DNA of 35,832 bases, taken from an uncultured Lachnospiraceae bacterium. Lineage in GTDB: Bacteria > Bacillota > Clostridia > Lachnospirales > Lachnospiraceae. Under the pieces are notes generated by a model. It saw nothing but the letters and a program-made list of their open reading frames with translations. It was not told where the DNA came from and made no database searches. The stretch's first letter is position 1. Each line of letters begins with the position of its first letter. Of this stretch, positions 6,207 to 20,898 are shown piece by piece. The stretch lies in assembly GCA_946531495.1 (NCBI GenBank), contig CAMNAQ010000005.1:1-35832 (forward strand). The letters are read 5' to 3'. Position numbers and translations under genes: made by a program.

Positions 6207-6211
6207 TTTCT

Positions 6212-6240
6212 ATTATACGCCAAATACCGCTTGTTGTCTT
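6212..6240 (-). promoter_or_regulatory. sigma-A-type promoter of the protease-fusion gene
   Basis: On the minus strand a perfect TATAAT (6217-6212) lies 17 bp downstream of AAGACA (6240-6235), which matches TTGACA at four positions. The start codon at 6100 is about 105 bases further on, giving a leader of about 100 nt that contains one stem-loop. Confidence 0.6.
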
Positions 6241-6284
6241 TATTGCGGAGAGATTTAAAAGGAGGATCCTTAATATTATTTCCG

Positions 6285-6320
6285 GGAAAAAACGAGCCAC
6301 CCAAGAGGATGGCTCGTTTT
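6285..6320 (-). terminator. intrinsic terminator after hicA
   Basis: Perfect 9-bp stem AACGAGCCA (6291-6299) / TGGCTCGTT (6310-6318) with a 10-base loop. On the minus strand the stem is followed by TTTTTT. It lies 13 bases after the hicA stop and separates hicBA from the protease-fusion promoter. Confidence 0.85.
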
Positions 6321-6332
6321 CTTATATGGAAA

Positions 6333-6766: not shown

Positions 6767-6893
6767 ACGCTCCTTCTCCTTTCCTTTGATATTCAACAGG
6801 AAAGGAACCATCTTACATTAGGTTCACTTCCCCGGTACATACACACTGGCAGATATCCCCTAATGCTATTTCAGCCAAAATAATCCAAAACCT

Positions 6894-6922
6894 ATTATAT
6901 CCTCATTAACAAGCTTTGCAAA
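6894..6922 (-). promoter_or_regulatory. promoter of hicBA
   Basis: TATAAT (6899-6894) is preceded at 17 bp by TTTGCA (6922-6917) on the minus strand, about 130 bases before the hicB start. A small inverted repeat GAACC/GGTTC (6805-6809, 6821-6825) in the leader could be an operator but is weak. Confidence 0.5.
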
Positions 6923-6943
6923 TCATGGAATTTAGATAATATT

Positions 6944-6971
6944 TTGGAATTACCTACAAATGTAGTAAAAT
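6944..6971 (+). promoter_or_regulatory. plus-strand promoter with palindromic spacer, upstream of the nuclease-like gene
   Basis: TTGGAA (6944-6949), 16 bp, TAAAAT (6966-6971). The spacer contains the perfect palindrome CTACA-AA-TGTAG (6954-6965), placed where a repressor would block RNA polymerase. It is nearly back-to-back with the hicBA promoter. Confidence 0.45.
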
Positions 6972-7019
6972 ATTACGTGATTTGAGTTCTGTAATTGTTA
7001 AGGAAAATGAGGATCCCTT

Positions 7020-7592
7020 ATGTTTCCGTATCTCAGGAAGATTTCAGACTTCATCAGGGACTGCGAGACAGTCAGAAAAGAAATATCCCTTAAGAAATCG
7101 GGTGAGCACCAGTTTGTCACCCTCTATAATCCGCGCAGATCGGATAAGCACTTCACATGCAATCAGAAGTGCGAATCCTGTAAAAACATGCCTGCCGTTG
7201 TCACTCAGCTCATAAGAAATGTTGACGAAGCAAACTGGGGTGGCGACACCTCAAATGGCATCAACTCTGTAGCTTACAGTGAGATCAGGGCATGGTGCCA
7301 GTCAATATGCGTCGCACTGTATGAAGTCCTGAAGCCGCTCGAGAACATGGACCTTGTCATCGGTTTCGAATATTATCTTGAGACCAGGAAAGGCTTCGGC
7401 AAAGACAACAAGAACCACTACCGCGTCGATGTGATGATAGGCGGATACGGTACCAGATTCGGCAAGCCCGAAGGCAGGCTCCTTGTCATGGAACAGAAAC
7501 AGTACGAAGTCGTCCACTGGAAGAACTATCATTTCAAAGAAGACCGAGACGAAGATAACCTGGTAATCTCCTTCTTCTCCCTTTCGTCGTAG
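7020..7592 (+). CDS. PD-(D/E)XK nuclease-like N-terminal fragment, probably truncated
   Basis: A 190-aa protein whose residues about 115-165 carry a nuclease-like pattern: IGFEYYLE, then YRVDVMIGGY, then RLLVMEQKQYE, resembling the E...D...ExK core. The segment SEIRAWCQSI before it recalls the N-terminal nuclease region of DUF2075 (COG3410) helicase-like proteins, which are much longer. Two CxxC pairs (CNQKCESC) occur at about 48-55. The last about 20 residues are read from the antisense of the convergent gene ending at 7529, an overlap of 64 bases, so the original C-terminus is probably lost. GAGGAT lies seven bases before the ATG. The family assignment is tentative. Confidence 0.45.
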   Translation: MFPYLRKISDFIRDCETVRKEISLKKSGEHQFVTLYNPRRSDKHFTCNQKCESCKNMPAVVTQLIRNVDEANWGGDTSNGINSVAYSEIRAWCQSICVALYEVLKPLENMDLVIGFEYYLETRKGFGKDNKNHYRVDVMIGGYGTRFGKPEGRLLVMEQKQYEVVHWKNYHFKEDRDEDNLVISFFSLSS

Positions 7593-8641
7593 GCTTTCAC
7601 CTCCGCCTCTTCTTCGGGTGACAGCGGTGTCACAAAATCATCAGCGTAAGGATTCCATATGCCGGAGCCGTCTTCGAGAACATATTTCTCAAGGAATGTG
7701 CCCCGGCTATCCTTTAGATATTTCAGAGCCTCATCCATCGAATCAAAGAGCATCGTGCTCTGTCCTACCATTATATCCCCGTACGTTTCAATATCGCGGT
7801 TCTCATCATACCAGCTTTCAAAACAGATGACTGCGAAGAAGACGTCACAGGGTTTTCCTTTTCTGTCAGCATAGTTATCAAGAGAACTTTTTGAGCACTT
7901 GCTCCTTCCGGTTATGTAGAGTCCTGCGCCGGTTACCTCATCGAATCCGAGGGGGATATACGCATCGGTTGCATATTCACCGGATGACATAACACCGGAA
8001 TAGAGTCTTTCACAATATTCACGGTATTTTCCGTCAAAGAGTCTGCCGCTCTCTTTACCGAATCTGCTCACATTCTTAACCCGGACAGCACCAATGAACT
8101 CCGTATACTCACTCAGCAGTCTTATGTCATCACCATAGAGACTGTCCGCATCACCCGAGTCCTTCAGGAAGTCATTGATGTTACGGAAGATCAGTTTATC
8201 CTTATACTCACGAAGTCTGGAATCATCTGCGAAGATGGCATCCGCTGCGATCTTCTTATTCTTCGAATCCTCAATAACCTTATCAGTCCAATTTCTTATG
8301 GTACCTGATGATCTTTTGTCATTATCATACAGAGCATAGAGCATTGACAGTGCCTTCAGATGGGACACTTTGCCCGATGCATAAGCAATGGAAAGCGCCT
8401 CCACCATTTGGTACTGATTGGTCCTTCCGAACCTGCCGCATGCAGCAGCAGCGACATCCTCTGCAAGCACCACTGCTCTTTCATCATTGACGCTTTTCAG
8501 ATAGCGGTAGATGAAGCTTTCGTGTCTGGGGTCATCAGAATAAGCACATGCCGAAACAGGCTGCTTAAGTTCCCAGTCTTCTTTAATTGTGGAATAGAGA
8601 TCACGGTAATTTCTGATCTCCCTGTTTCCACCTATTATCAT
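7529..8641 (-). CDS. hypothetical protein, last gene of the ClpP block (370 aa)
   Basis: Not recognised. The protein is soluble and mixed alpha/beta, with a helical N-terminal half rich in Lys/Asp and a C-terminal half with beta-rich segments (DVFFAVICFESWYDENRD) and an acidic helical tail (SPEEEAEVKAYDEREKKE). Its ATG overlaps the preceding stop (ATGA at 8641-8638) and GAGGG lies eight bases upstream, so it is translationally coupled to the 367-aa gene. It ends inside a convergent plus-strand gene, and no terminator is visible after it. By position it belongs to the clpP/coupling-ATPase operon. A structural or adaptor role is possible but unsupported. Confidence 0.6.
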   Translation of the reverse strand: MIIGGNREIRNYRDLYSTIKEDWELKQPVSACAYSDDPRHESFIYRYLKSVNDERAVVLAEDVAAAACGRFGRTNQYQMVEALSIAYASGKVSHLKALSMLYALYDNDKRSSGTIRNWTDKVIEDSKNKKIAADAIFADDSRLREYKDKLIFRNINDFLKDSGDADSLYGDDIRLLSEYTEFIGAVRVKNVSRFGKESGRLFDGKYREYCERLYSGVMSSGEYATDAYIPLGFDEVTGAGLYITGRSKCSKSSLDNYADRKGKPCDVFFAVICFESWYDENRDIETYGDIMVGQSTMLFDSMDEALKYLKDSRGTFLEKYVLEDGSGIWNPYADDFVTPLSPEEEAEVKAYDEREKKEITRLSSSRSSLK

Positions 8642-9741
8642 TTAAGGACCCTCGCACGGAAAACAGCAGACTTTATAGATGCCTCTGCAGAATTGATTGC
8701 CTTGTTCACGAGTCCGTAATTCTTATCAATGGAATATGCGCTGATTCCACTCTCATACAGGAATGCATCAACAAGATGAGTCATATCCTCTTTCATGCGT
8801 GAGAGATCGGCCTTGAAGAAATACTTACGGAAATTCTTATACTCCTGTTCGAACCTTTCCTTATCTCCTATATGCGAACACCATTTGGTAATGGTGCCCA
8901 TCGCAACCTCGAACCTGTGTTGGTCTTCTTTCTCCTGTTCCTCCATTATCTGAAGCATGATCTCAGGATCAGGTTCATTTTCTTCCTCATACAAAAGCTG
9001 TGACTCACTGTCAGGATTGTATCCGAGGTAGTCATCGCTTTCTGAAATCTCATCCTCCATGCGGATCCTGCTCACATGCTCTTCCTCTTCAGCTTCAGCC
9101 TGCTCTTCAGCCTCTGCTTTTTCGACATCAATCTGTGTCAGCAGGTCCATTCCGGGACGTCTTCTGTTGTAGCCCCATTCGAAGGAAGGTGCGAGTTTCT
9201 TATATATACTCTTCTCCCTGTTTGTGTATATCTCATTCAGTTCCTTATCCATAAGGCATCTGTATGAATGAGCCATATAGAACAGGATATCCCTCTGGGT
9301 ATCATCCTCATCTTCCCACGAATGATTCTCATACCATATGAATTCATAGGGATCCTGAAGTACAGGATCTATGTCAGTAAGTTCAATTATGTCCTCGAAC
9401 TTTCTCGCATATCCATACTCAGGAGCAAGCCATTCCGTATAGACATCGGGGCTGACAAGGACACAGTACAGATATGATCTGTACCACTCCCTCTGGTCCT
9501 TTGACAGTTTCTTCTCTCTGCATGTATCAATATATCTGTCCAGAGCATCAAGCATATCCGTGATGACAGAATCGATCCTTTCGGACTCTATCACGCCCTT
9601 TTTATTCTCAATGAACGGATAGACGAATTCAAAATAACCGCTCATTATTCGTCTGATGCGATCGAATTCCGTCTCCAGATTATGCTTTCTGAATTCGACG
9701 ATATTTATAGCGTTTTTGTCGTATTTTCTTGTATTTTTCAT
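8638..9741 (-). CDS. hypothetical acidic protein of the ClpP block (367 aa)
   Basis: Not recognised. Two helical halves are joined by a very acidic low-complexity linker around residues 205-260 (AEAEEQAEAEEEE and later EEENEPDPE). The N-terminal part contains aromatic-rich helices (WYRSYLYCVL, FIWYENHSW). The C-terminal part is helical and basic. No membrane segment or catalytic motif is seen. The start ATG has GGAGGG nine bases upstream and lies 21 bases after the 238-aa gene; its stop overlaps the next start. Such an acidic linker is typical of scaffold or adaptor proteins, but this is only inference. Confidence 0.6.
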   Translation of the reverse strand: MKNTRKYDKNAINIVEFRKHNLETEFDRIRRIMSGYFEFVYPFIENKKGVIESERIDSVITDMLDALDRYIDTCREKKLSKDQREWYRSYLYCVLVSPDVYTEWLAPEYGYARKFEDIIELTDIDPVLQDPYEFIWYENHSWEDEDDTQRDILFYMAHSYRCLMDKELNEIYTNREKSIYKKLAPSFEWGYNRRRPGMDLLTQIDVEKAEAEEQAEAEEEEHVSRIRMEDEISESDDYLGYNPDSESQLLYEEENEPDPEIMLQIMEEQEKEDQHRFEVAMGTITKWCSHIGDKERFEQEYKNFRKYFFKADLSRMKEDMTHLVDAFLYESGISAYSIDKNYGLVNKAINSAEASIKSAVFRARVLK

Positions 9742-9762
9742 GGAAATAACCCTCCGAAAAAA

Positions 9763-10479
9763 CTACACCTGTATTGTAACACGCGGAAACGCCTGTTTAC
9801 CATCGACATTCATCTTCATCATAAGAGGCACTTCGACCATAAGGATCCAGACCCAGCAGCATGCAATGTTTCCGATCATCTCCATTCCGTATTCCCCGTA
9901 TTTCCTTCGGAATGCTTTTTCAATTCCCTTTGGTATATCATCTCTTGTCGGCACTACGATCTCCACAAACCTTCTGCTGAGGCGATACTCATCCTCCCTG
10001 TCTTCCACGACACTCTTGTATGAAGTCTTCAGCACATCACCTATGGTCGGCACAACTCCATTATCTCTTTCCCAGGTCATGGCATCGAGCATGAACCATC
10101 TGTCATATCCTTCCTCTGCACCGGCCGCTTTCATATATTCATCCACAGGCAGATCCAGGAAAGCTTTCATATGCTTACTGATATGAGAAAATGTCAGGGT
10201 CAGGATCGTATCAGCCGGTATATACATGGTGTCGATCGTCTTTTCATATATGCGCTCAACAGCTTCTCCATATGTATGTTCACCGCTTCTCATGCCTGCA
10301 AGTCTTTTGAAATCCGCAACAGTCTGATCCAGGAAGAATCTGTCACCGTCACCCGGATCTATGACCTTATCAAGATCAAGCGAAAATAATTCATCAACTG
10401 TTTTTCGTATGTAGGCAGGGGAATATCCCCTGCCGGACTGTATCTTCTTAAGTCTTTCTTCGAATTTTGTAGTTGCCAT
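9763..10479 (-). CDS. hypothetical protein of the ClpP block (238 aa)
   Basis: Not recognised. Mainly helical, with a basic N-terminus, a middle part containing DTMYIPADTILTLTF and a hydrophobic stretch near the C-terminus (about 200-218, IGNIACCWVWILMVEVPLMM) followed by a short beta-like end. That stretch could be a buried core or a membrane-contacting helix; it is on the short side for a clear transmembrane segment. GGAGG lies five bases before ATG. The gene starts 15 bases after the coupling-ATPase stop, within the same transcription unit as clpP. Confidence 0.6.
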   Translation of the reverse strand: MATTKFEERLKKIQSGRGYSPAYIRKTVDELFSLDLDKVIDPGDGDRFFLDQTVADFKRLAGMRSGEHTYGEAVERIYEKTIDTMYIPADTILTLTFSHISKHMKAFLDLPVDEYMKAAGAEEGYDRWFMLDAMTWERDNGVVPTIGDVLKTSYKSVVEDREDEYRLSRRFVEIVVPTRDDIPKGIEKAFRRKYGEYGMEMIGNIACCWVWILMVEVPLMMKMNVDGKQAFPRVTIQV

Positions 10480-10494
10480 ATCCGCCTCCTGTTA

Positions 10495-11820
10495 TCATTC
10501 CTTCAAAAGGATATCCATTGAATAAGGTTCAACAACATCACAGAGCCTGGGCTTTCCGCCTCTTTCCACGATCCATGCCTTACCGAGTTCAAGGTTCTTG
10601 ACGCTCTCAGGAAGGCATCCGGCTATGTCCGCAACATAATCTGCTGTTTCTGCATCATCCTGTCCGCCTATGAATATCTTGTGATCACAGTTGGACATTA
10701 TCGTTCTCGCATGTGCCTTCTTGTACATCCCTTCAAGCTGTGAGAGGTCCTGAAGTATTATGCTGGTGCTTATCTGTCTGGATCTGATGGTGGAGATGAT
10801 CTTATCGAAGTCAGGGATGAATACGTTATTGGCAAAGTCATCGAGGACTATCCTGACCGGGACCTCAAGTTTGCCGTCCTCATGCGAATCCGCTTCGTTC
10901 ATCAGAGTCTGGAAAAGCTGAGTGTAGAAGATATTGACCATCATGTCCATGGACCTTCTGTTATCGCTGACATTGACGAACACCACAGTCCTTTCTCTGC
11001 CGATATCGGCAAGTCTGATATCGCTCGCATGCTTTGTGAACGGTTCCATCTCATCGAAGGAGAGAATCTCGATTGAGTTGGATACGAACTGCTCTATCGA
11101 GGACCAGGTTTTCTCGCTGGTGAAGATTCCTTTGTATTTCCTGTATGAGCGGTATGCAAAGGAATGGGGATGCTCTTTTCCGAGGAGTTCGAAGAATGAT
11201 ACGCCTGGCCAGTTGCGGTCACGGTTTCCTTCAAAGCACTCTTCGGACAGCTGCTCATATGCACTGATCACCGAATCCATGTTGCGGTCTTCCTCGTCAG
11301 CAGTTTCGAGAACATACGCCATCAGGCTGAGCAGTACGCTCCTTGCGGACAATTCCCAGAAAGGTTCATCATCCTGTCCGTCAGGGATAAGAAGCCTGGC
11401 GATTTCTCTGAGGTCCTGCTGGCTGTATTTTTTTTTCTTAACCTTTTTGCCCTCTTCATCTATGGCCTCGGTCTCATACCATCTGACCTCATCGAGGATA
11501 TTGTAATGAGCAGATCTTTCCGGATGGACGAAGTCGATGCAGACCACCTTAAAGCCCTTCTTTCTGAGGTAATCTCCGTATTTCTTCACCAGAAGTCCCT
11601 TGGTATCTGCGACCACCATGCTGTTCATCAGCCTGATGAGGTTGGGGGTAACATAGCTGCCCGTCTTACCGGCTCCGGATCCTCCGACGATCAGGTCATT
11701 GCCGTTGAGTCTGCTTTTGAAGGAATCCTCGGACACCTCACAGCCCTTGGCAAGAATACGGGTTCCGTACTCTCTGTCAGACATTACATTTGCTGCTTCG
11801 ATCTTGTTTTTCTTCTGCAT
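10495..11820 (-). CDS. VirD4/TraG-like coupling ATPase without membrane domain (441 aa)
   Basis: A RecA/FtsK-fold ATPase of the type IV coupling-protein family, which in conjugation pumps DNA or protein substrates. Walker A GGSGAGKT (46-53) is followed by a VVADTKG segment. Walker B is VLDDFANN (Asp327-Asp328, where the family usually has DE), followed by the diagnostic IRSRQISTSIILQDLSQL part and a CDHKIFIGGQDDAETADYV region. The N-terminal transmembrane helices and large all-alpha domain insertion of VirD4 are absent or reduced. ATG 11820 is chosen because GGAGG stands seven bases upstream; ATG 11826 is too close to it, although it overlaps the clpP stop as ATGA. No relaxase, VirB4 or other secretion genes are near, so a role outside conjugation is likely. 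Confidence 0.85.
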   Translation of the reverse strand: MQKKNKIEAANVMSDREYGTRILAKGCEVSEDSFKSRLNGNDLIVGGSGAGKTGSYVTPNLIRLMNSMVVADTKGLLVKKYGDYLRKKGFKVVCIDFVHPERSAHYNILDEVRWYETEAIDEEGKKVKKKKYSQQDLREIARLLIPDGQDDEPFWELSARSVLLSLMAYVLETADEEDRNMDSVISAYEQLSEECFEGNRDRNWPGVSFFELLGKEHPHSFAYRSYRKYKGIFTSEKTWSSIEQFVSNSIEILSFDEMEPFTKHASDIRLADIGRERTVVFVNVSDNRRSMDMMVNIFYTQLFQTLMNEADSHEDGKLEVPVRIVLDDFANNVFIPDFDKIISTIRSRQISTSIILQDLSQLEGMYKKAHARTIMSNCDHKIFIGGQDDAETADYVADIAGCLPESVKNLELGKAWIVERGGKPRLCDVVEPYSMDILLKE

Positions 11821-11822
11821 GA

Positions 11823-12401
11823 TCATCCCTCCATTAATCCTGTTGCGAGGCCGAAGGTGATAGCTTCTTCGGCAGTGAAATAGGTATCGTGTGCTGTTAC
11901 TTTGTAGATCTCCTTAAGTGACTTGCCGGTGCGTTCGGAAATGATGCTTGCCAGCGACTCCCTGCATCTGTTCAGATCATCGAGCTGTGCCTGAATCTCC
12001 TGTGACTTCATCCCTCCGATATCGTGATTTCCACCGAAGGCAGGATCGTGTATCATGATTTTGCCGTGAGCCATCATTTCTCTCCTGCCTCCTCCGAGGA
12101 ATATGATGGCACCCATGCTCGCACAGGTTCCGACGCATACAGTTCTGATAGGGGACTTAATGAGCTTCATAAGATCGTAGACAGCGAGTCCGTCCTGAAC
12201 ATTACCTCCAGGGCTGTTGATATAGAGTGTGATTTCATCATTGGAGTCCAGGCTGTCCAGATACATGAGTTTGACGATCAGTTCTGCGCATGAATTGTGG
12301 TTCACATCATCTGTAAGAAAGATCATTCTTTTCCTGAGAAGTTCGTCCTCGATCGGAACAGGCTGAATTCCTCTGGATGATTCGAGTATTACATTTGCCA
12401 T
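11823..12401 (-). CDS. clpP: ClpP-type serine peptidase, accessory copy
   Basis: A 192-aa ClpP, the usual length, forming in the family a 14-mer chamber that degrades proteins fed by AAA+ unfoldases. The triad is intact: Ser95 in GTCASMGA, His118 in IMIHDP and Asp172 in HDTYFTAEEA. The segment INSPGG (61-66) is standard; changes from housekeeping ClpP include CAS for AAS and HDP for HQP. The chromosomal clpP normally neighbours tig or clpX; here it heads an operon with a coupling ATPase and three unknown genes, so this is an accessory paralogue. AGGAGG lies just upstream of the ATG. Likely partners are the ClpX-like protein at 15015-16034 and perhaps other AAA+ proteins of the island. Confidence 0.93.
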   Translation of the reverse strand: MANVILESSRGIQPVPIEDELLRKRMIFLTDDVNHNSCAELIVKLMYLDSLDSNDEITLYINSPGGNVQDGLAVYDLMKLIKSPIRTVCVGTCASMGAIIFLGGGRREMMAHGKIMIHDPAFGGNHDIGGMKSQEIQAQLDDLNRCRESLASIISERTGKSLKEIYKVTAHDTYFTAEEAITFGLATGLMEG

Positions 12402-12435
12402 TGCTTTCCTCCTTATAAACTGTTGTTAACGGTTT

Positions 12436-12461
12436 CCGCAGTGGCCCGTTTTCGGGTGCGG
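12436..12461 (-). promoter_or_regulatory. nested stem-loop in the clpP leader, next to a possible -10 box
   Basis: Outer arms CCGCA (12436-12440) / TGCGG (12457-12461) enclose CCCG-TTTT-CGGG (12445-12456). On the minus strand it directly follows a TAAGAT that may be a -10 box (12471-12466); the -35 is weak. The clpP mRNA would then start with this hairpin. Confidence 0.4.
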
Positions 12462-12482
12462 ATCAATCTTACTACGAACGCA

Positions 12483-12513
12483 AAAACACGACGCTGAATT
12501 GGCGTCGTGTTTT
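12483..12513 (-). terminator. intrinsic terminator between the 640-aa gene and clpP
   Basis: A 12-bp perfect stem (12483-12494 with 12502-12513; core ACACGACGC / GCGTCGTGT), seven-base loop, A-run on one side and T-run on the other. It lies 52 bases after the 640-aa gene's stop and ends block B before clpP. Confidence 0.85.
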
Positions 12514-12564
12514 CCAAATTCCCCTTCGGGGTAAGTATGCTGTTTTATCTGCGGATATTCAGGA

Positions 12565-14487
12565 TCATCTTCCACCTGTTATGGTAGACAGGTGTCCCGG
12601 CATATACCCGATGAATGTCTTCTTCAGATCCCTGTCGTAATAATAGTAGATCCTGATCAGGCCTTCCTCGTCCCTTGCACCTACACCTCTCTTGAGGTGC
12701 TTGTCGAGTATAACCGCATCCTTGCGCTTCTTTTCGTCCACAATTCCCTTAGCGATTGCATCATTATAGTAGGATGAGATATTGATGGTGTACTGATCCT
12801 TGTACTTGCTGGTAGCATCACCGACAGGAGCCATTTCTACTCCTGACAGGATGGTTCTGTATTCCTCCTGCAGTTTCTCCCAGTCCTTCTGGTCAATTTC
12901 CTCGCTGTTTACATATCTCGTATATCCTGCGAGATAATGGATCATGTAGTACAGATTGTGGTACGAATCCGAATCAACCCTCCAGGTACAGTCCGAAAGG
13001 CTCCTCTTAGCCTTTTCATGTACGATCAGGCAGTCCGAATAATACTCCTCGATCCAGCTGAGTATATCATCAGCAGAATTTGTGATTGGCATATCAAAAA
13101 GAGCCTCATGACGATCATAGAACTGTTTGAATGTGGAGCCGCCGCTTCTTTTCTTAAGTTCTGCATTTTCTTTTTCGAGTTCATCACATCTCTTTTGGAA
13201 GACGTCGCTGCTCTTATCGTCATGGCTGTTCTCCAGGCTTTCGATGCGCCTGGAAAGTTTTCCGTTCTCGTCCTCGAGCTTCTTTATTTTCTCATTCAGA
13301 TCTTCTATATCGAGCTGACATTCATGCCAGTCTTCATCGCGCAGGATCTCGCAGAACTTAAGATCCCTCTTGGTTTCCTCCAGTTCTTCCCTGCACTGTG
13401 CCAGGGCGCTCCTGAGATCTTCGATGGTAGCGGCATCGCCCGTAAGTCTGTTTATTTTTTCCTGGAAGAAGACATCCCTGAAGAAGATATCACTATCGTA
13501 TCTTATATCGCATCTGCGGAGTTCCAGATCCCTGTCCTCAGAGAATGTTCCGCAGAAGTAATTCCTCTCACTATCAAACGCAAACTTTTCGGCATACTCT
13601 TCTCTGGTGAAATACATGGGAGTCTGACCTAAAAACGCAACCTCACCCTGAAGAATATGATCCATGTACTCCTTGCCATGTTCTGCAAGAAGCTTTCTGA
13701 CGCTTTTCTGAACCTGAATAACGTGACAGAATCCGACACTCGAGTACGCAATCCTGTCGATTATATCATCGCGCTCCGTGGTGGCTATCAGTTCTGCTGC
13801 TTCATCCTCTGATATCAGCAGCACTGGGAGCTTTCTGTTTTCATTAAAGAGAAGGCCCTTTCTGAATTCCTCGCAGGCCATATCGCTCTTTCCATTTACT
13901 TCTATTGCATATCTGCCAAAAGCATAAGCCTTATCGATGCCATGTTCGGTTACGGCAAGTTCATCATCCCATATGGCATCCCTTACAAACTGCGGACGAT
14001 AACCGGGGATGTACATGTCATTGCCGGTATCGTAACCTGCAGTACATTTGATTGCCATGACCACATGATCATCCTCGGGATATACCGCTATCGCAGTACG
14101 GAATGTGGAATCACGTCCCTCGCTGATGGCAATCTCGCTGAGTTCCATGGCCCATTTAGATTCTTTCTCATAATAGGCCAGATGAGGGTGCATTACATTG
14201 TCAGCGCCTATGCCGTTTGTTTTGGTAAGATCGTATGAATCGTACACTTCCGGTGCAAGGATCTTGTTGCTTTTCTTTATGACCGGTACATCCGTTATCT
14301 GCGCCAGGAATTCATCATTGGAACAGCCTGTCTTTTCACCTTCAAGCTTGTTCTTAAGCCATCCGAGGACATAGAATACCAGCTTCTTCTGACAGTGCGT
14401 AACGCTTAAACCTTCCGAAGGATATACGTCCAGAATTGATCTGTAAATGTCTTCATTTTTCTGTAATCTGAGTTTTCTCGGCTGCAT
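12565..14487 (-). CDS. hypothetical coiled-coil protein of the ClpX-like block (640 aa)
   Basis: Not recognised. Three parts are visible: an N-terminal alpha/beta part (1-350) containing YDTGNDMYIPGYRPQFVRDA and a RYAIEVNGK segment; a coiled coil (about 355-445) with heptad-like Leu/Ile spacing (LRSALAQCREELEETKRDL, later LEDENGKLSRRIESLE); and a C-terminal helical domain (450-640) ending in a basic beta segment. AGGAGG lies seven bases before the ATG. The architecture fits a substrate sensor or adaptor that oligomerises through the coil, but no function can be assigned. It follows the small 110-aa gene by 100 bases, with its own possible promoter, and ends at a strong terminator. Confidence 0.65.
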   Translation of the reverse strand: MQPRKLRLQKNEDIYRSILDVYPSEGLSVTHCQKKLVFYVLGWLKNKLEGEKTGCSNDEFLAQITDVPVIKKSNKILAPEVYDSYDLTKTNGIGADNVMHPHLAYYEKESKWAMELSEIAISEGRDSTFRTAIAVYPEDDHVVMAIKCTAGYDTGNDMYIPGYRPQFVRDAIWDDELAVTEHGIDKAYAFGRYAIEVNGKSDMACEEFRKGLLFNENRKLPVLLISEDEAAELIATTERDDIIDRIAYSSVGFCHVIQVQKSVRKLLAEHGKEYMDHILQGEVAFLGQTPMYFTREEYAEKFAFDSERNYFCGTFSEDRDLELRRCDIRYDSDIFFRDVFFQEKINRLTGDAATIEDLRSALAQCREELEETKRDLKFCEILRDEDWHECQLDIEDLNEKIKKLEDENGKLSRRIESLENSHDDKSSDVFQKRCDELEKENAELKKRSGGSTFKQFYDRHEALFDMPITNSADDILSWIEEYYSDCLIVHEKAKRSLSDCTWRVDSDSYHNLYYMIHYLAGYTRYVNSEEIDQKDWEKLQEEYRTILSGVEMAPVGDATSKYKDQYTINISSYYNDAIAKGIVDEKKRKDAVILDKHLKRGVGARDEEGLIRIYYYYDRDLKKTFIGYMPGHLSTITGGR

Positions 14488-14510
14488 GATCCATCCTCCT
14501 GTAGCATAAG

Positions 14511-14553
14511 GTTCTGTTCATAAATTTTCTGAGCAGAACTATTATTAATTGTA
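14511..14553 (-). promoter_or_regulatory. extended -10 promoter and 5' stem-loop before the 640-aa gene
   Basis: On the minus strand TGC-TACAAT (14556-14548) is an extended -10 box with a poor -35. It is followed by a 10-bp stem (14511-14520 with 14530-14539, one wobble pair; GTTCTG/CAGAAC arms) and a nine-base loop, placed at the predicted transcript start. The leader then runs to AGGAGG. No T-run follows, so this is not a terminator. Confidence 0.4.
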
Positions 14554-14587
14554 GCATTTTTTCGGGATTTTTACGAACAAAGCTACT

Positions 14588-14917
14588 TCACGATATGTAT
14601 GTTTCGCTGTCCTTCAACTTCAGATCAACGATCTCCTGCATGGCTCTTGCAAGGAGCATCAGGACATTCATACTGTACTGATCGTCCCACAGCTCGGACA
14701 GGATATTCGCAACTTCCGCTTCGGCAGCAACAGCTTTTTCGGGGATACCATCAAATTCTCCGGCATTCATCTTAAGTGTAAAGCTTACTGTGGGATTCTT
14801 GATGTTCAGGTTGTTCATAACCACTTCCCTGAGCCTGGGCACATCGCTTTCGTGATCAGGCTGGATGTGGATGTGGGTTCCAAGGTAGCTGTTCTTTTTG
14901 TATTCAAGATGCATCAT
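14588..14917 (-). CDS. hypothetical small protein (109 aa) behind the ClpX-like gene
   Basis: Not recognised. It begins with two methionines and a beta-like stretch (LGTHIHIQPDH), continues with a helix (VPRLREVVMNNL), a strand (TVSFTLKM) and ends in a long helix (YSMNVLMLLARAMQEIVDLKL). The start ATG 14917 is chosen because GGAGG lies eight bases upstream; an ATG two codons earlier is only two bases from it. It lies 97 bases after the ClpX-like gene on the same strand. A ClpX-adaptor or antitoxin-like partner would fit its size and place, but nothing in the sequence proves this. Confidence 0.55.
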   Translation of the reverse strand: MMHLEYKKNSYLGTHIHIQPDHESDVPRLREVVMNNLNIKNPTVSFTLKMNAGEFDGIPEKAVAAEAEVANILSELWDDQYSMNVLMLLARAMQEIVDLKLKDSETYIS

Positions 14918-15014
14918 GAGCATGTCCTCCTTTAAAGGGTAGTGTTAGTTGTTGAGTTGCATTGGTTCTCTGAATCAGGCTGTCGGACGATGGTGGCAAG
15001 TCATATGGTCACGT

Positions 15015-16034
15015 TCAGGCAATCTCGAATGTCTTGAGGCGGCTGTCGCTCCACATCATGTCATAGATATATTCGCGGATGGAATTTTTCATACCGCGGA
15101 TACCGAGACCGCTTGAGTAGGCCTTATGAGCAATTTCATCACAGCGCTCACTGCTGATGATTATCGGCATTCCGAACTCTTCCTCAAGTTCATGCACAGG
15201 GCCCTTTACATGATCATCAAGGATCTTGCGGAAAGCTTCTTCAGAGAAAGGATTAAGGTTCACAAGTCTGTGGATCCTGCCGCAGAGTTCGTTGATGCAG
15301 CCTGCCTCGTGGATGTCTTCCATCGTAAGTTCCCTGTCATAGGACTTAGCCTTGGAAAGGCTCGAACCAAAGCCGAGCATGGGACCGGATTCATTTTCAG
15401 CAATCTGTCCTGCCGTTTTCTCGAATGCACCTGCGAACATGAAGCTGATTCCCGAGGTATCGATGGTAGAGAATCTTCTGTCTATATCGGAATCAGGAAC
15501 CCTGAGTTCTCCGCCGTGGATGACCGTGAGGAATTCTGCCTGCACGGTTTCACTGACATTCTCCCGACCGCTGTTTATCTTCGGGGAGAAGAGCTTGTCA
15601 CACTCGTCAAGGAAGATGATGGGCTGAATGCGACCGGAATTCCTGTCAGGAACAGGCACATCGGAAAAGAGTGTTGAGACCTTCTTTCCTCCGGACCAGC
15701 CATCACAGGTGACATTGGAAACATCCCTGATATATACAAGTTCGGGGAACATATCCTTCAGCTTCTCAGCGATGAAGGACTTACCGGAACCGGTGGGGCC
15801 TGCGAGCATTCCGACAAAGCGGTGACCGTGAAGATGCTGATATACCATCATTGCAACTTTCTTGCATGCATCATCCTGATCGATAACAGCCTTCAGAAGC
15901 TCATCCCTGATCTGCACAGGGGTAAGAGCAAGATAGTTATGAGAGCCTGATACCGTAGAGCGGGAAGAAATCCTGTAATCATCGGAATACCAGGGGACAT
16001 ATCTCTGAACGACATGAATGTTGTTATTTTCCAT
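15015..16034 (-). CDS. ClpX-like AAA+ unfoldase with LGF loop (339 aa)
   Basis: An AAA+ protein clearly related to ClpX but without its N-terminal zinc domain. Walker A is GPTGSGKS (79-86), the pore-loop position reads GWSG (112-115) instead of GYVG, and Walker B is IIFLDECDK (139-147). A segment MLGFGSS (219-225) sits where ClpX carries its IGF loop, which docks on ClpP. The arginine-finger region reads CGRIHRL (ClpX: IGRLP), and sensor 2 is GIRGMKNSI (310-318; ClpX GARGLRS). ATG 16034 has GGAGG seven bases upstream, so the longer frame to 16052 is rejected. It should unfold proteins and feed ClpP, most likely the ClpP encoded at 11823-12401. It heads block B and is preceded by a highly folded leader. 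Confidence 0.88.
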   Translation of the reverse strand: MENNNIHVVQRYVPWYSDDYRISSRSTVSGSHNYLALTPVQIRDELLKAVIDQDDACKKVAMMVYQHLHGHRFVGMLAGPTGSGKSFIAEKLKDMFPELVYIRDVSNVTCDGWSGGKKVSTLFSDVPVPDRNSGRIQPIIFLDECDKLFSPKINSGRENVSETVQAEFLTVIHGGELRVPDSDIDRRFSTIDTSGISFMFAGAFEKTAGQIAENESGPMLGFGSSLSKAKSYDRELTMEDIHEAGCINELCGRIHRLVNLNPFSEEAFRKILDDHVKGPVHELEEEFGMPIIISSERCDEIAHKAYSSGLGIRGMKNSIREYIYDMMWSDSRLKTFEIA

Positions 16035-16078
16035 AAGCTGACCTCCTGTCATATGTTAGGTGGTTAATGGGGTACGTC

Positions 16079-16162
16079 CTCTCCCGCCACCAGCCTTGGC
16101 ACGCTCGCCGCTGAATGCGGGTCATGGCTGTGCTTCCCCGGCTGTCGCCCGGGCGGGAGAGC
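16079..16162 (-). ncRNA. strongly structured leader RNA upstream of the ClpX-like gene
   Basis: A perfect 10-bp outer stem CTCTCCCGCC (16079-16088) / GGCGGGAGAG (16153-16162) encloses a GC-rich region with further pairings on the minus strand: a CCGC-ATTCA-GCGG hairpin, a CGG/CCG hairpin, and GCAC/GTGC crossing with CAGCC/GGCTG, which could form a pseudoknot. It is far richer in G+C than its surroundings and lies between a TTGACA-containing stretch (near 16173-16178) and the ribosome binding site at 16041-16045. It could be a cis-regulatory element or a separate small RNA. I cannot match it to a named RNA family. The rest of the 318-base gene-free stretch holds a small GGAAC/GTTCC repeat (16179-16193) and the long hairpin at 16208-16285. 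Confidence 0.5.
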
Positions 16163-16207
16163 GATATTCAGTTGTCAAGGAACTGACCGTTCCGAACAAA
16201 TGAACGC

Positions 16208-16285
16208 AAAAAGGGACCGGTATTTAGATTTTCGATAAATGGGTAGACTTCTAGCCCAAAATCGATTATCTAAATACCGGTCCCT
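16208..16285 (-). terminator. long inverted repeat, probable terminator of block C
   Basis: An 18-bp perfect stem (16212-16229 with 16268-16285, arms begin AGGGACCGG and end CCGGTCCCT) continues through two mismatches into TCGAT/ATCGA, and the loop contains another imperfect stem (GGGTAGA/TCTA-GCCC). On the minus strand TTTTT follows the stem. It lies 67 bases after the uracil-DNA-glycosylase-like gene. It is longer than usual for a terminator and may derive from a small mobile palindrome. Confidence 0.65.
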
Positions 16286-16352
16286 CTTGGATCAGCTTAT
16301 TTTTCTGTTGTGTGAGAAGTATATCCCGACATGACGATCATGTCAACAGATT

Positions 16353-17117
16353 TCACAAAATTTTTTCCCAGTCATGATGAATATCGAACCACTTCTTACT
16401 GCTCCGTCCAAGCGCTCCGATCTGGCGGGGGTGAGCAAGAGGCAGCACATGAATTTCTCTTCCATCTATGATCACAGGAGTAGCTTTTCCATATCCATAC
16501 ATATCGGAATACTCACGAAGGTATCTGTACGGCACTTTACATACACGTCTCAGATACTGGTGGATGGGAACGTCTCCCAGAAGAACAAGAAGTTCTGCCT
16601 GGGATTTCTTCAATTCCTCAGTTATCTCCTTCGCCCTCTTATCGTCGCAGAACAGATATGGCCTGTCAGGAACCGTAACAGGATTAAGTCCATACTTCTT
16701 TATGAGCGGTTCATAATTCTTCGCTATGGTTCTCTGCTGATTGCCATTCAGTCTGGTCTCGGGAAGGCAGTCGCAAAGCCATGCATCATCACGGGTAAAT
16801 CCAAGTGGCTTCAGAATATCCTCATCCAGTACTCTTGCAGAAGGACCGTTAAGATCCTTATCTGTAGGTACAAGCCTGCCAAGCTCCTCAGGAATCCTGA
16901 TCCTGTCAATTATGCTCCTTGCTTCTTCCTGATTTCCATCCCAGAAGATCTTCGGTTCACTAGCAACAGCAAGTGCATTGCAGATAGTCTTTTCATCCTT
17001 TTCCCATCTTGCATGCACAGCACTTGCATATACTCCAAGGACAAACACCTTCTTAGGCGTCTGATCCTGCTGGACCAGTCTATGAACATATTCGCCAAAA
17101 GGATATTGGTATTTCAT
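16353..17117 (-). CDS. uracil-DNA glycosylase-superfamily-like protein (254 aa)
   Basis: The strand-motif order resembles the UDG superfamily: VFVLGVYASAVHARW near residues 24-38 (position of the first catalytic motif), a central LLVLLGDVPIHQYL segment, and a C-terminal HVLPLAHPRQIG that matches the histidine-proline motif of the fold. The usual catalytic Asp/Asn of motif 1 is not evident, so it may bind rather than cleave nucleobases, or act on an unusual base. There is no Fe-S cysteine pattern. GGAG lies seven bases before the ATG. It follows the unrecognised 240-aa gene by 34 bases and is closed by the long hairpin terminator. Its presence suggests that the island interacts with DNA. The assignment is by motif only. 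Confidence 0.55.
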   Translation of the reverse strand: MKYQYPFGEYVHRLVQQDQTPKKVFVLGVYASAVHARWEKDEKTICNALAVASEPKIFWDGNQEEARSIIDRIRIPEELGRLVPTDKDLNGPSARVLDEDILKPLGFTRDDAWLCDCLPETRLNGNQQRTIAKNYEPLIKKYGLNPVTVPDRPYLFCDDKRAKEITEELKKSQAELLVLLGDVPIHQYLRRVCKVPYRYLREYSDMYGYGKATPVIIDGREIHVLPLAHPRQIGALGRSSKKWFDIHHDWEKIL

Positions 17118-17151
17118 AAGTCCGCTCCTTCTTTATCGTCAGGTTATCACA

Positions 17152-17871
17152 TTATCTTAAGGCCTCTGTGATTTTTCCTCCATCCATTCTTATCTGCACG
17201 CGTGAGAAGTTCCCGCTTGCATCGTTCATATCTATATATACATTGGAATCATATGTATCAAGGGTCTCAACAAGATCTCTGATCATCCGCTCATTCCACT
17301 TATTGCCCCGAAGCGTGGGCATCAGTTTCTCCACCTGCTCAGTCAGGTCTGTGTGGCTGTCAATACGTATCCTGAACACCTCTCCAGCATCCATTGATAC
17401 ATTCGCCGCATTGTAACAGATAACAAGCTCATCCTGCCCCCAGTCGCCGCCACTTATATCTCTGTGAATCATATATCCTTCCGTACCAAAGACAAATCTT
17501 CCGCTTGCCCCGGACAACTTCTCTGCGAGGTCTTTCGAAATCGGATAGTCTCCCGCAGCGTTCAGATGTGTCCCGGCAAAGGCAAGCCACTTTTCGGGAT
17601 CTATGATAATCTCATCATCTTTCTCTTTCCAAACGAGATTCCGGATGTGATAACCCTTACGTGTGCTGAAGTATACCATTCTGCACTGATCGGTATCCCT
17701 GACTAAATAGCGTCTGAACTTTCTGGGAGCGATGCGTATCTTCATGCTCCTGCCTTCACGCTTCTCCCTGCCATACAGATGGTCACCGTCAAAGGCAAGA
17801 AGCAGCAGTTCACACTCTCCGCTTTTATCCCACAGATCCGATTCATAAAGCATCTCAATCTTATCAGCCAT
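17152..17871 (-). CDS. hypothetical protein between the CbbX-like and UDG-like genes (239 aa)
   Basis: Not recognised. A soluble, beta-rich protein with segments such as CELLLLAFDGDHLYG and RMVYFSTRKGYHIRN, and a C-terminal half around NAANVSMDAGEVFRIRIDSH, then a helix and a last strand (NVYIDMND). The opening strand-plus-DG motif recalls TerD-like proteins, but I would not assign it. ATG 17871 is taken as start because GGAG is six bases upstream; ATG 17877 and TTG 17883 lie on or before that site. It has its own promoter and is probably co-transcribed with the UDG-like gene. Confidence 0.55.
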   Translation of the reverse strand: MADKIEMLYESDLWDKSGECELLLLAFDGDHLYGREKREGRSMKIRIAPRKFRRYLVRDTDQCRMVYFSTRKGYHIRNLVWKEKDDEIIIDPEKWLAFAGTHLNAAGDYPISKDLAEKLSGASGRFVFGTEGYMIHRDISGGDWGQDELVICYNAANVSMDAGEVFRIRIDSHTDLTEQVEKLMPTLRGNKWNERMIRDLVETLDTYDSNVYIDMNDASGNFSRVQIRMDGGKITEALR

Positions 17872-17934
17872 ATCCATCTCCAATCATCTCAGTGCCCTTA
17901 AACAGCCCCCTAAGCCGTCATGCCATATATCATA

Positions 17935-17963
17935 ATAATATGCCCTTATACAATACAGGTCAA
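17935..17963 (-). promoter_or_regulatory. promoter of the 239-aa / UDG-like gene pair
   Basis: TTGACC (17963-17958), exactly 17 bp, TATTAT (17940-17935) on the minus strand, in the 154-base gap after the CbbX-like gene. The gap also holds a small CCGGG-AA-CCCGG hairpin (18004-18015) just after the upstream stop, without a T-run. Confidence 0.6.
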
Positions 17964-18025
17964 ACCACGAATCATATATCCTCTGTCAGCCTCTCATACT
18001 TATCCGGGAACCCGGCGGCTCATCG

Positions 18026-20089
18026 TCATACCCTGAATCCTATCTGTCTCTTCTCAGGCCTCTTTGCCCCGACTTCACCGGTTTCAAAGTCTTCAGGCAT
18101 CAAAGTCTTCACAACCGATTTCCCAATCCTCTTTCCCTTGTATTCCCTTACTATCCTGTGTGACTGGCTCATTTGGGCCTTCTCGATCAGATTCCGGACA
18201 TACCTGCCGTTTCCAAAATCAGGTACACTGCATGCTCCATCAAGGATTTCCCTGCACACATCCTCTGTACCTTTCCCAAGCTTCAGTCCTCTCTTATGAA
18301 CCATGAGTTCGAGAATCCTGTACAGTTCATCACTGTCATAATCCGGAAATTCAAGATGAAATGCTATCCTGCTCCTGAGTCCCTCATTCCTTGCAAGGAA
18401 CTCTTCCATTTTATCCGGATATCCGGCAAAAATGACTATCGTGTCATTTCTGTGATTCTCCATCTCCTGCACTATTGTGTTGATTGCTTCATCGCCGAAT
18501 GAATGACTGTCATCAACAAGCGAATATGCCTCATCGATAAAGAGCACTCCTCCTCTTGCCATCCTGAAATATCGGCATACATTCTTTGCCGTCCATCCGA
18601 CATACTTTCCGACCAGTTCTGCCCTTCCGCATTCCACAAGATGTCCGCTCTCCAGCACTCCCTCCTTCTTAAGTATCTGTGCAACAAGTCTTGCAACTGT
18701 TGTCTTGGCACTTCCGGGATTACCGGTGAAGATCATATGAAGTGATGCATCTGTACTGTCGAGTCCCATTTTGCTCCTGAGTTTCCGGACAGCTGCAGTA
18801 TCAACAATCTCATCCACAACCTTCTTGATCCCATCTAGTCCGATCATGTTCTGAAGTTCCTGATAGGGCTCGTTCACCGTGACTGACCTGTCAACACTTA
18901 CGGTGGAACATTCTCTGTAGGCTCTGTAGATTCTCTCCTTCAGTCCGCGCCTCACCCACTCGGAATACTTCTCATCAACCTCACCTGCGGTATACTGCTT
19001 CCGTTCGGAAAACAGCGCCCGCACCTTCTTTTCTCCAATCTTATTTCCGTCCCTCATGGCTCTGTAGAGAAAATACTGCACTGCCTCATTTCTTCCTCCA
19101 CAGCCTTCACGGATTTCGATGATATCAAGGGCCTCTGCTATCTTATTGACCATGGCACCGCCAAATCCCTCTTTTTCGGATAAATCAACAAATATGCATA
19201 GGGTTTTCATCTGATGCTTTAGTATCAGCTTTTCATAGAACTCCATAACCCTCTGATAAGATGATGAATAACTTCCGTGATCATCTTCATCTCCTGCCAT
19301 CTCTATTGCGAGAACAGTTCCTTCACCATACTTGAAGATTTTCTCAACATCATGATCATTAAAGCAGTTCTCCGAGATATCCGACAGATAGTTGATCCTC
19401 GATCCGATCAGTCTGCCGTTTGTCATCAGCGCTCCGACAAGCAGTTCTATCATTCCCTTTGCCGCATCCCTGCATGTTACGGAGAGCTTATAATGGACAG
19501 GTATCCCGAAAAAACCTTTCTGATTATCAGGTGAATATATCCTTTCTATCTCTTCGAGCAGGCTTTTATCTCCCATTAGTTCTGCCGCCCTGTTCAGCGC
19601 TTCATACTTCGTGAGGTTTTTCTTTTCGGGAATGATCTCATTAAGATTAAAGTCATTATTGTTAAAGTAATCCACCTGAATATCGAAGTTTCTCCACCTT
19701 GCTATGAATTCATCATCACTTCCCTTTTCTATCCTGTCAGAAAAATTCTGCGCTGAGATTTCTGACACATCCGTCACTTCTCTTACTTCAAGTGCATAGT
19801 TTTTCTCAAGATATCTGCAGACTGTTTCAATGCAGTCCGTTCCTCCGTTACAGGTATCGCTGCATGCCATAACAATGAAAAGTTCACCTGGTATTGCACT
19901 ATAGATCTGAGCAATGATCGTATTGCCATCCCTCCCAAGATTCTTCATGCTCTTATTAGCTCTTTCAATCACGATGCTGAATTCCTTCTCAAAGTTTTCT
20001 GACTGCGGATCCACTGACAGGTGTCTTACAAGCCCATCCCCCTTTACATCCCTGTCCCGGAATAAAATCTTATATTCATAAAAGATCAT
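18026..20089 (-). CDS. CbbX/SpoVK-like AAA+ ATPase with a long N-terminal region (687 aa)
   Basis: The C-terminal part (about 410-645) is a CbbX/SpoVK/EccA-type AAA+ module: IGLDGIKKVV, Walker A GNPGSAKT (456-463, with Ala replacing the usual Gly before Lys), LVGKYVGWTAKN (492-503), Walker B VLFIDEAYSL (515-524), AGYPDKMEEFLARNEGLRSR (555-574) and sensor 2 GNGRYVRNL. In the family such ATPases remodel protein complexes. Residues 1-400 are not recognised; the stretch 255-330 (VLAIEMAG, TLCIFVDLSEKEG) may be a degenerate second nucleotide-binding fold. GGAGG lies seven bases before ATG. It is the first gene of the island, divergent from the regulator at 20209. Confidence 0.82.
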   Translation of the reverse strand: MIFYEYKILFRDRDVKGDGLVRHLSVDPQSENFEKEFSIVIERANKSMKNLGRDGNTIIAQIYSAIPGELFIVMACSDTCNGGTDCIETVCRYLEKNYALEVREVTDVSEISAQNFSDRIEKGSDDEFIARWRNFDIQVDYFNNNDFNLNEIIPEKKNLTKYEALNRAAELMGDKSLLEEIERIYSPDNQKGFFGIPVHYKLSVTCRDAAKGMIELLVGALMTNGRLIGSRINYLSDISENCFNDHDVEKIFKYGEGTVLAIEMAGDEDDHGSYSSSYQRVMEFYEKLILKHQMKTLCIFVDLSEKEGFGGAMVNKIAEALDIIEIREGCGGRNEAVQYFLYRAMRDGNKIGEKKVRALFSERKQYTAGEVDEKYSEWVRRGLKERIYRAYRECSTVSVDRSVTVNEPYQELQNMIGLDGIKKVVDEIVDTAAVRKLRSKMGLDSTDASLHMIFTGNPGSAKTTVARLVAQILKKEGVLESGHLVECGRAELVGKYVGWTAKNVCRYFRMARGGVLFIDEAYSLVDDSHSFGDEAINTIVQEMENHRNDTIVIFAGYPDKMEEFLARNEGLRSRIAFHLEFPDYDSDELYRILELMVHKRGLKLGKGTEDVCREILDGACSVPDFGNGRYVRNLIEKAQMSQSHRIVREYKGKRIGKSVVKTLMPEDFETGEVGAKRPEKRQIGFRV

Positions 20090-20208
20090 GTTCGCACCTC
20101 CTGTTTCTTCGTGTATGGAAAATATACAACACGCGAAAAACGCAGAGTGCCATCTTGGTGGCGAAAGCCTTAAAAAGGTGATAAAATCAGGGTATGAAGG
20201 GATGAAAA
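20090..20208. promoter_or_regulatory. divergent control region between the AAA+ gene and the regulator
   Basis: This 119-base gap must drive both directions. Towards the minus strand a TATATT (20129-20124) is a possible -10 box. Towards the plus strand GATAAAAT (20180-20187) is a possible -10 region. Imperfect inverted sequences CGTGTAT...ATACAACACG (around 20109-20136) could be an operator for the adjacent regulator. The individual boxes are weak; the assignment rests mostly on gene layout. Confidence 0.4.
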
Positions 20209-20898
20209 TTGAGCAATAAAGGGAAAATACTGAGACAGTTGAATATATACTTCAATATCAGAATGACCGAATACCACGGTCCTTCGGAACTCATCAGACG
20301 TTTCGGGATATCTAAAAGAACTCTTCACCGCGACCTTGATGACCTGAGAGAAAGCGGCCTGCTGAAACTGAAATACGACAGGAAGCATGATAACTATATC
20401 CTCAACGATGAGAGCAGTACTGAAATCAGCTCTGATCAATCAGCAAACACTGCAGAAAAGAAATCGGGAAGATCCAAAAAAAGATATACCAAAAAGAACG
20501 CTGCGGATAAAAGAAAAGTCGGAAACAGAAACGAAGATGAAATGATAAGCGCACGCAGGCATCAGCACCTGACACGGCTGTACAGGCTTGGCACTCTGAT
20601 CTTCTCGCTTACTCCGACAGACACAGAAGCGGTGTCGGACTATCTCTATGACCTTGAAATGTATCATTTCTACATTCACGAATTGATGAAGGAAGATCCG
20701 GAGCAATACACTATTGATGAAGCCCCTGATAAACCTGAGCTGCCGGACATCACAGATCTGAAAGCTGAGTACTACTCAATCTTCCCGTATTCAAGTGAAA
20801 GAACAAGACAGAGAGATTTCGAAACCCTGACACGCGCAGGCTTTCCGATACATTACGACAGAAGAATAAAACGATATATTTACGAACCTTACGATTAA
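20209..20898 (+). CDS. transcriptional regulator with two winged-helix-like segments (229 aa)
   Basis: The N-terminal part has a DeoR/HTH_11-like winged helix: SELIRRFGISKRTLHRDLDD, then wing YDRKHDNYIL. The C-terminal part repeats the pattern: SERTRQRDFETLTRAGFPI, then YDRRIKRYIYEP, as in WYL-family regulators, but no WYL ligand domain is present. A basic Lys/Arg-rich linker (about 82-108) lies between. The start is TTG 20209: GGG lies seven bases upstream, a stop blocks the frame six bases before, and the next Met is at residue 19 inside the first helix region. It is the only plus-strand gene beside the island and probably controls it. It ends one base before the convergent gene at 20900. 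Confidence 0.75.
   Translation: MSNKGKILRQLNIYFNIRMTEYHGPSELIRRFGISKRTLHRDLDDLRESGLLKLKYDRKHDNYILNDESSTEISSDQSANTAEKKSGRSKKRYTKKNAADKRKVGNRNEDEMISARRHQHLTRLYRLGTLIFSLTPTDTEAVSDYLYDLEMYHFYIHELMKEDPEQYTIDEAPDKPELPDITDLKAEYYSIFPYSSERTRQRDFETLTRAGFPIHYDRRIKRYIYEPYD

Follow-up and report, generated by a model that had tools for sequence, protein, structure and literature searches.

A recurrent pairing of ClpP peptidase with a soluble VirD4/TraG-like ATPase, encoded in an accessory island of a Lachnospiraceae bacterium

We have analysed a stretch of 35,832 nucleotides from an uncultured Lachnospiraceae bacterium (assembly GCA_946531495.1, contig CAMNAQ010000005.1, positions 1 to 35,832; hereafter the window), which carries an island encoding a ClpP peptidase. 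The constant, co-varying partner of this ClpP is a VirD4/TraG-like ATPase (hereafter TraG). A first-pass annotation of this DNA had read the island as a dedicated ClpP with its own ClpX and had listed the VirD4-like ATPase as one item among several; the complete ClpP and the VirD4-like ATPase are indeed both present, but the latter, not ClpX, is the constant neighbour of ClpP. The two genes share 4 bp and are as follows:

11823..12401, minus strand: ClpP peptidase, 192 aa, triad S95/H118/D172 kept; Pfam CLP_protease 167.6 bits (cut-off 20.2)
10495..11826, minus strand: soluble VirD4/TraG-like ATPase, 443 aa, Walker B DD, without membrane anchor; NF045973 299.6 bits (cut-off 250)

Recurrence of the ClpP-TraG pair

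Four TraG sequences first found beside ClpP (window, genus genome G227 and two loci of genus genome G200) were aligned as A1 and used to scan genome and viral collections, the best 80 of 108 genome relatives and one viral contig making up a set of 81 loci; the query contained no ClpP, yet all of its seeds were ClpP-linked. A co-directional ClpP lies within two genes of TraG in 66 of the 81 loci, one locus of the set (L096) having yielded no TraG open reading frame (ORF) in the gene calls. When the distance is limited to 500 bp, 65 loci give 66 neighbour relations, of which 59 have the order ClpP-TraG, nine of them with a 4-bp overlap, and seven the order TraG-ClpP. The pairing is kept in 50 of 65 loci after removal of three seed loci and dereplication at 85%. 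Six of the 31 genomes of the genus carry the pair, namely the source genome, G227, G200 (two loci), G211, G220 and G224, the last with a 248-aa gene between the two members. Of 75 stretches matched in the viral collection, one (L135) holds a relative, its contig being laid out like those of L070 and L071, and the plasmid and phage collections gave many TraG matches, every one below 60% identity. Many gut Clostridia carry this two-gene unit of ClpP and a soluble cousin of VirD4. Moreover, TraG divergence correlates with ClpP divergence (r=0.74, a value that may include the shared ancestry of the hosts). We regard it as close to certain that ClpP and TraG are a real functional pair.

The TraG-linked ClpPs are also distinguishable as a group. 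With a local support of 0.869 they cluster separately from 10 other genomic ClpPs, and the median identity of the accessory ClpP to the main ClpP of its own genome is 40%. Since the island ClpP scores 148.2 bits against the NCBIfam ClpP equivalog TIGR00493, below the cut-off of 308.6, it is a divergent ClpP. The triad is largely preserved among 77 TraG-linked sequences (serine in 77/77, histidine in 74/77 and aspartate in 73/77), and judging from these residues the accessory ClpP is predicted to be catalytically intact.

The TraG lineage and its Walker B motif

The TraG of the pair keeps its motor motifs, and its AF2 model (pLDDT 93.3) has Cag-beta and TrwB as best structural matches. An N-terminal membrane anchor was not found in the protein, the maximal 19-residue hydropathy being 1.13. 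ClpP-linked TraGs are devoid of the membrane domain and have a median length of 434 aa; their Walker A lysine is preceded by a median of 50 residues, against 150 in long TraGs. Their Walker B motif reads DD in 77 of 77 cases, counting TraGs with ClpP anywhere in the locus, versus DE in all 22 long TraGs (>450 aa) picked from 37 loci (L008-L014, L136-L165); the long TraGs of L148 and L163, outside the picked 22, also read DE.

A control was carried out on loci fetched without asking for ClpP, from 60 Lachnospiraceae genomes with NF045973 and from 398 genomes of the phylum with profile A3. For each search 30 loci were taken, as the best match per genome (32 and 77 genomes matched), and 1.5 kb of flanking sequence was included to the left and right, so that a ClpP farther than 1.5 kb from TraG would be missed. 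Because profile A3 was built from ClpP-linked TraGs, its sample favours the ClpP-linked kind, which the NF045973 sample does not. Of 59 distinct loci examined, the source locus L193 having been dropped as the same gene as L157, 57 could be read, L165 being without a TraG ORF and L164 a fragment with an unreadable Walker B. Eight of these are DD, the source locus included, and all eight have ClpP within 1.5 kb and a TraG of 415-450 aa; the other 49 are DE and none has ClpP (Fisher p=6e-10 for DD/DE versus ClpP). DD is thus the Walker B signature of this anchor-less TraG lineage, in which the change from DE to DD may tune hydrolysis.

The accessory island and its exchangeable modules

The part of the island that was first annotated consists, as described, of eleven co-oriented genes, which are minus-strand ORFs at 7529, 8638, 9763, 10495, 11823, 12565, 14588, 15015, 16353, 17152 and 18026 and span 7529-20089, and of a single regulator diverging from them on the plus strand (20209-20898). 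The island extends leftward past 7529 to the window edge, which is also the contig edge (window position 1), a continuation with HicAB-like, ClpB-FtsH and esterase genes that the first description had omitted. Pfam was run on 20 window ORFs, genes 6333 and 7020 and the ORFs right of 23384 being outside that scan. The features other than the pair are listed below, G222 and G227 being two further genomes of the genus.

336..12400, no strand: segment present in the window and absent in G222, beginning exactly at the ClpP start codon and running past gene 365 (blastn)
365..2431, minus strand: 400-aa protein without family name, and putative esterase; Pfam Esterase 42.8 bits (cut-off 22)
2477..6157, minus strand: fusion protease of ClpB-type AAA_2 and FtsH-type AAA/M41 parts, 1226 aa; HEAGH kept, no obvious membrane helix
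6333..6811, minus strand: HicA-like/HicB-like pair, one gene of which we take to be HicA-like; on the HicB side Pfam DUF7387 40.9 bits (cut-off 27.9)
7020..7592, plus strand: 190-aa protein, ORF only
7529..8641, minus strand: 370-aa protein without family name; cluster 11, relatives in L055, L056, L057, L063 and L074; AF2 model poor (pLDDT 52.5) and unusable
8638..9741, minus strand: 367-aa protein without family name; cluster 10, relatives in the ClpP-TraG loci L055, L056, L057, L063 and L074
9763..10479, minus strand: 238-aa protein after TraG, without family name; cluster 17, relatives in L055, L056 and L057; among 200 family genomes, matched in the source genome only
12565..14487, minus strand: 640-aa coiled-coil protein (HEC-like), encoded immediately before ClpP; resembles PADLOC HEC-07 in its C-terminal part (E=1.7e-16, strongest over residues 397-635); in G227 and G222
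14588..14923, minus strand: small protein, 111 aa, companion of the ClpX-like gene; a 30% identical gene adjoins the ClpX-like gene of L048
15015..16052, minus strand: ClpX-like AAA+ unfoldase of 345 aa with an intact LGF loop; 37.4 bits with Pfam AAA_2 (cut-off 27) and 91.7 bits with NCBIfam clpX (cut-off 370.75), hence not a ClpX equivalog
16353..17117, minus strand: UDG-superfamily-like protein, first annotated as nucleobase-glycosylase-like; the Pfam UDG match exists and is weak, at 18.9 bits below the cut-off of 24.3
17152..17883, minus strand: 243-aa protein without convincing family; in G227 and G222
18026..20089, minus strand: CbbX/SpoVK-like AAA+ ATPase carrying an N-terminal region of 400 aa, the second AAA+ ATPase of the first description; AAA 59.1 and AAA_lid_6 53.9 bits, both over Pfam cut-offs, but short of the equivalog cut-offs of SpoVK, CbbX and EccA (TIGR02881 268.6 bits, cut-off 423)
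20209..20898, plus strand: divergent HTH regulator; HTH_11 31.2 bits (cut-off 25); in G227 and G222

The count of six unrecognised proteins among the eleven was borne out, six having given no convincing family in the Pfam and NCBIfam scans. Likewise, no integrase or relaxase family and no secretion channel gene occur among the 20 scanned window ORFs, the contig ending at window position 1, and neither a conjugative element nor a prophage is suggested by the scanned genes.

The accessory nature of the stretch, already proposed in the first-pass annotation, is supported by a comparison of the insertion site. Gene 20900 was matched in 16 of the 31 genus genomes, and the stretch was compared in seven others than the source. 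In four of these (L184, L185, L186, L189) a gene which we take to be isomerase-like comes 99-115 bp after gene 20900; two more (L187, L188) have one or two different genes in between, and one (G222) has an island beside gene 20900.

The island of G222 contains the HTH, CbbX, 17152, UDG, ClpX, 14588 and HEC genes. By blastn, window positions 12401-21995 and 1-335 align with it and nothing between; over 12680-21995 the nucleotide identity is 92.5%, the ClpX protein is 100% identical and the UDG-like protein 98% identical, the latter being without a match in the G227 stretch. In G222 a distance of 185 bp separates the two flanks of the missing segment, and the ribosome-binding site of ClpP is still there, so that G222 has most likely lost segment 336-12400. 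About 0.15 kb past the stretch matching window 1-335, and some 0.8 kb after its HEC-like gene, G222 carries a type IV restriction gene (PADLOC mREase_IV, E=1.7e-200), which fits a defence-type site; in the source genome this gene may or may not be there, beyond the contig end. A distant HEC-like relative (23%) is found in G078 (L228:3417-9497, L183:946-4333) near a NUDIX-like gene and a restriction-like gene which, by eye, we take to resemble that of G222, where HEC keeps like company.

A different composition is found in G227, which has the HTH, CbbX, 17152, HEC, ClpP, TraG, 9763, 8638 and 7529 genes and replaces UDG, ClpX and 14588 by a 306-aa gene (sub-threshold NERD) and a 455-aa metallo-beta-lactamase/RMMBL gene; these lie exactly at the UDG-ClpX-14588 place (L045:6197-8481), an exchange slot inside one operon. 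In another genus, L048 has adjacent ClpX-like (54% identical) and 14588-like genes, with no ClpP or TraG match within 20 kb. The idea of a fixed eleven-gene system was rejected, because G222 and G227 each miss part of the set: the expectation that the genes are conserved together holds for parts, which recur in both genomes, and fails for the whole, which in neither is a fixed set of eleven. The island is therefore made of exchangeable modules, everything from ClpP through gene 365 being separable, and two of the other modules, the ClpX-like and the ClpB-FtsH ones, are further protein-unfolding or protein-degrading parts.

The ClpB-FtsH fusion is rare: two of the 200 family genomes, one of them the source, gave matches at E<=1e-60; its relatives are a 1613-aa protein of G013 (L227) and one in L077. 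In L077 (Pseudobutyrivibrio) the 38% identical relative is the fifth gene after a ClpP-less DD TraG, and in L078 a 260-aa FtsH-like piece lies near another such TraG; on account of these positions there are hints that the ClpB-FtsH protease too belongs to the TraG network. As for ClpX-like relatives, genome G278 holds two (L050, L052): one lies near a presumed CRISPR-like array with Cas1-, Cas2-, reverse-transcriptase- and cytosine methyltransferase-like genes, and the other near presumed PARG-, HAD- and phosphoesterase-like genes. A further ClpX-like gene, in L051, adjoins genes that by eye we take to be PP2C-, HTH- and kinase-like.

Beyond ClpP and TraG the neighbourhood varies among the 81 loci. 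A macrodomain protein directly precedes ClpP in 11 of them (L087, L093, L107, L108, L109, L111, L116, L119, L123, L126 and L130); it was Pfam-checked in L126, and its C-terminal half is HTH-like by eye. Other neighbours are kinases (cluster 6, 8 loci), FHA proteins (cluster 8, 7 loci), a helicase cluster (7 loci) and PARG (3 loci), one member each of these and of the macrodomain cluster having been checked with Pfam or PADLOC and the cluster labels being extended by similarity. Genes like 8638 and 7529 occur in five loci. A link to ADP-ribose is hinted at by PARG and by TIR-like and phosphoesterase-like genes in the vicinity of other pairs. Sets of an HTH protein, an FHA protein and two Ser/Thr kinases stand by the pair or by a ClpP-less DD TraG in L053, L085, L090, L110, L125, L131 and L191, single members being Pfam-checked and the remainder assigned by similarity or by eye. 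A universal third partner of the pair was sought among 120 neighbour proteins (four from the window and one from L051 included), grouped in 80 clusters of which 3000 of 3160 pairs were compared profile to profile, and was rejected: the comparison gave a single sound new link, between clusters 61 and 86 (probability 90.6%), and a likeness of gene 9763 to these two clusters is unsupported (1.0% and 0.4%).

Proposed mechanism, alternatives and known systems

We propose that the core is a two-gene module, a dedicated Clp-type protease with a cytosolic VirD4-family pump as its motor, a reading to which we give an even chance. TraG would form a ring docking on the ClpP barrel, which would pull in and unfold selected proteins, as VirD4 pumps do with proteins secreted by the type IV route, and deliver them into the ClpP chamber to be destroyed. 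Neighbour genes (macrodomain proteins, kinase/FHA sets, helicases) would control the pair or choose its substrates, a task that in the window may fall to genes 9763-7529 and to the HEC-like protein with its coiled coil. Protein handling is known from members of the VirD4 family, Cag-beta and the Legionella coupling complex among them, so a protein-threading role would be natural for TraG. A physical complex of ClpP and TraG is probable, and that TraG is the motor feeding ClpP is an evenly balanced proposition. The wider claim of a new protease class, in which ClpP is driven by a soluble VirD4-type pump of the FtsK-HerA superfamily, with exchangeable sensor modules, as a Clostridia-wide effector of defence or element control, falls a little short of even; a defence-type role of the pair is put forward tentatively, the balance leaning against it, and a defence, stress or element-control role of the island is possible.

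Several observations weigh against this reading. No PADLOC system covers the set, ten window proteins (7529, 14588 and 17152 being outside this search) giving partial or generic matches, as did eight proteins of related loci, where the single full-length match is the restriction gene of G222. A conserved ClpP-docking tripeptide was not recognised in TraG by eye, the DD motif could make hydrolysis slower or abolish it, the accessory ClpP could be supplied in trans by a housekeeping ClpX, and the co-variation may partly reflect host ancestry. Short DE TraGs without ClpP exist (L147, 440 aa; L152, 391 aa; L215, 425 aa), and for this reason Walker B rather than length is the marker of the pair. 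Among 14 scan loci with a TraG ORF and no ClpP within two genes, one is DE (L133, 589 aa) and 13 are DD, of which L063, L067 and L074 have a ClpP elsewhere in the locus and L076 is truncated at a contig edge; DD consequently marks a lineage of which ClpP is the usual, not the invariable, neighbour. When 139 TraGs were placed in a tree, a single split set 80 linked and 10 unlinked DD sequences apart from 48 long-type ones and L133, with a low local support of 0.319.

Three other explanations were considered. TraG could be a DNA-sensing or DNA-translocating ring, comparable to HerA with SIR2, DUF4297 or NurA, which activates ClpP on invading DNA; the motor would then act on DNA, and ClpP would degrade host or invader proteins. 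We hold this to be unlikely. Improbable to a greater degree is a second ClpXP, in which the island ClpP would work with the island ClpX-like unfoldase and the remainder would be cargo. The ClpX-like partner of the first-pass annotation exists as an AAA+ gene, its [ILV]GF ClpP-docking loop is kept in 6/6 family members examined, and ClpX-like genes also occur in the ClpP-TraG loci L064 and L090; these are, however, only two of 81 loci, which shows that ClpX is not the constant partner of ClpP, and in the genus G227 has this ClpP without ClpX and G222 has ClpX without this ClpP. The ClpX-like protein may work with any cellular ClpP, the housekeeping one included, the source genome (G000, 75% complete, 167 contigs) having two further ClpP genes along with two further ClpX-type matches. 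In addition, 73 of the 81 loci hold no ClpX-, CbbX-, FtsH- or ClpB-like gene within the stretch examined, so that TraG is the only likely dedicated motor there.

Finally, TraG could be the decayed coupling protein of an integrated element, with ClpP as a hitchhiker or transfer regulator. The score above the cut-off of NF045973, a CD1115 conjugation family, would agree with this, as would some pairs (L065-L071, L135) lying amid genes that by eye resemble integrative and conjugative elements. Against decay, the motor motifs are kept, all 77 linked TraGs share DD, both gene orders exist, none of the 49 DE TraGs has ClpP beside it, and in L066 a further TraG, of the DE type, lies some 7 kb away from the pair; we judge this explanation very improbable.

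If the motor reading of the pair is true, a secretion or conjugation motor can be re-used for feeding a protease, and conjugation machinery would be tied to protein quality control or defence. The pair is a small two-gene system open to reconstitution, and the signature of anchor-less TraG, DD and ClpP can be used to re-annotate genes now called conjugation proteins. A ClpP-TraG/VirD4 pair was not found in the titles and abstract beginnings of the papers listed in searches of open-licence literature, bioRxiv preprints being outside it, and the NCBIfam name of a conjugation protein may have hidden the pattern.

In respect to known systems, the closest to HEC-07 of PADLOC is gene 12565, upstream of ClpP, which matches in its C-terminal part; the match is partial, and no complete known system occurs among the scanned window proteins. 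SIR2-HerA, DUF4297-HerA and HerA-NurA operons, some of which are antiphage systems, resemble the pair in joining a ring of the FtsK-HerA superfamily to an enzyme, but here a peptidase stands in the place of the nuclease or NADase, and in fold the pair's TraG appears nearer to VirD4 than to HerA. With the VirD4/TrwB/TraG coupling proteins of the CD1115 family the pair's TraG shares fold, motor motifs and a score above the family cut-off, whereas it has no anchor, DD instead of DE and a ClpP neighbour, no relaxase family being among the scanned window ORFs. As in ClpXP, ClpAP and ClpCP, an intact-looking ClpP with its triad adjoins an ATPase of a ring-forming kind; to our knowledge, all energy-supplying ClpP partners are AAA+ Clp ATPases, and such an ATPase is not a conserved partner in the 81 loci, the window itself having one. 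The constant ATPase neighbour is instead a RecA-like pump of the VirD4/TraG type, and the TraG-linked ClpP stands apart from other genomic ClpPs. The pair is best read as a putative Clp-type protease with an unusual motor, which would be categorically new if the motor model were proven.

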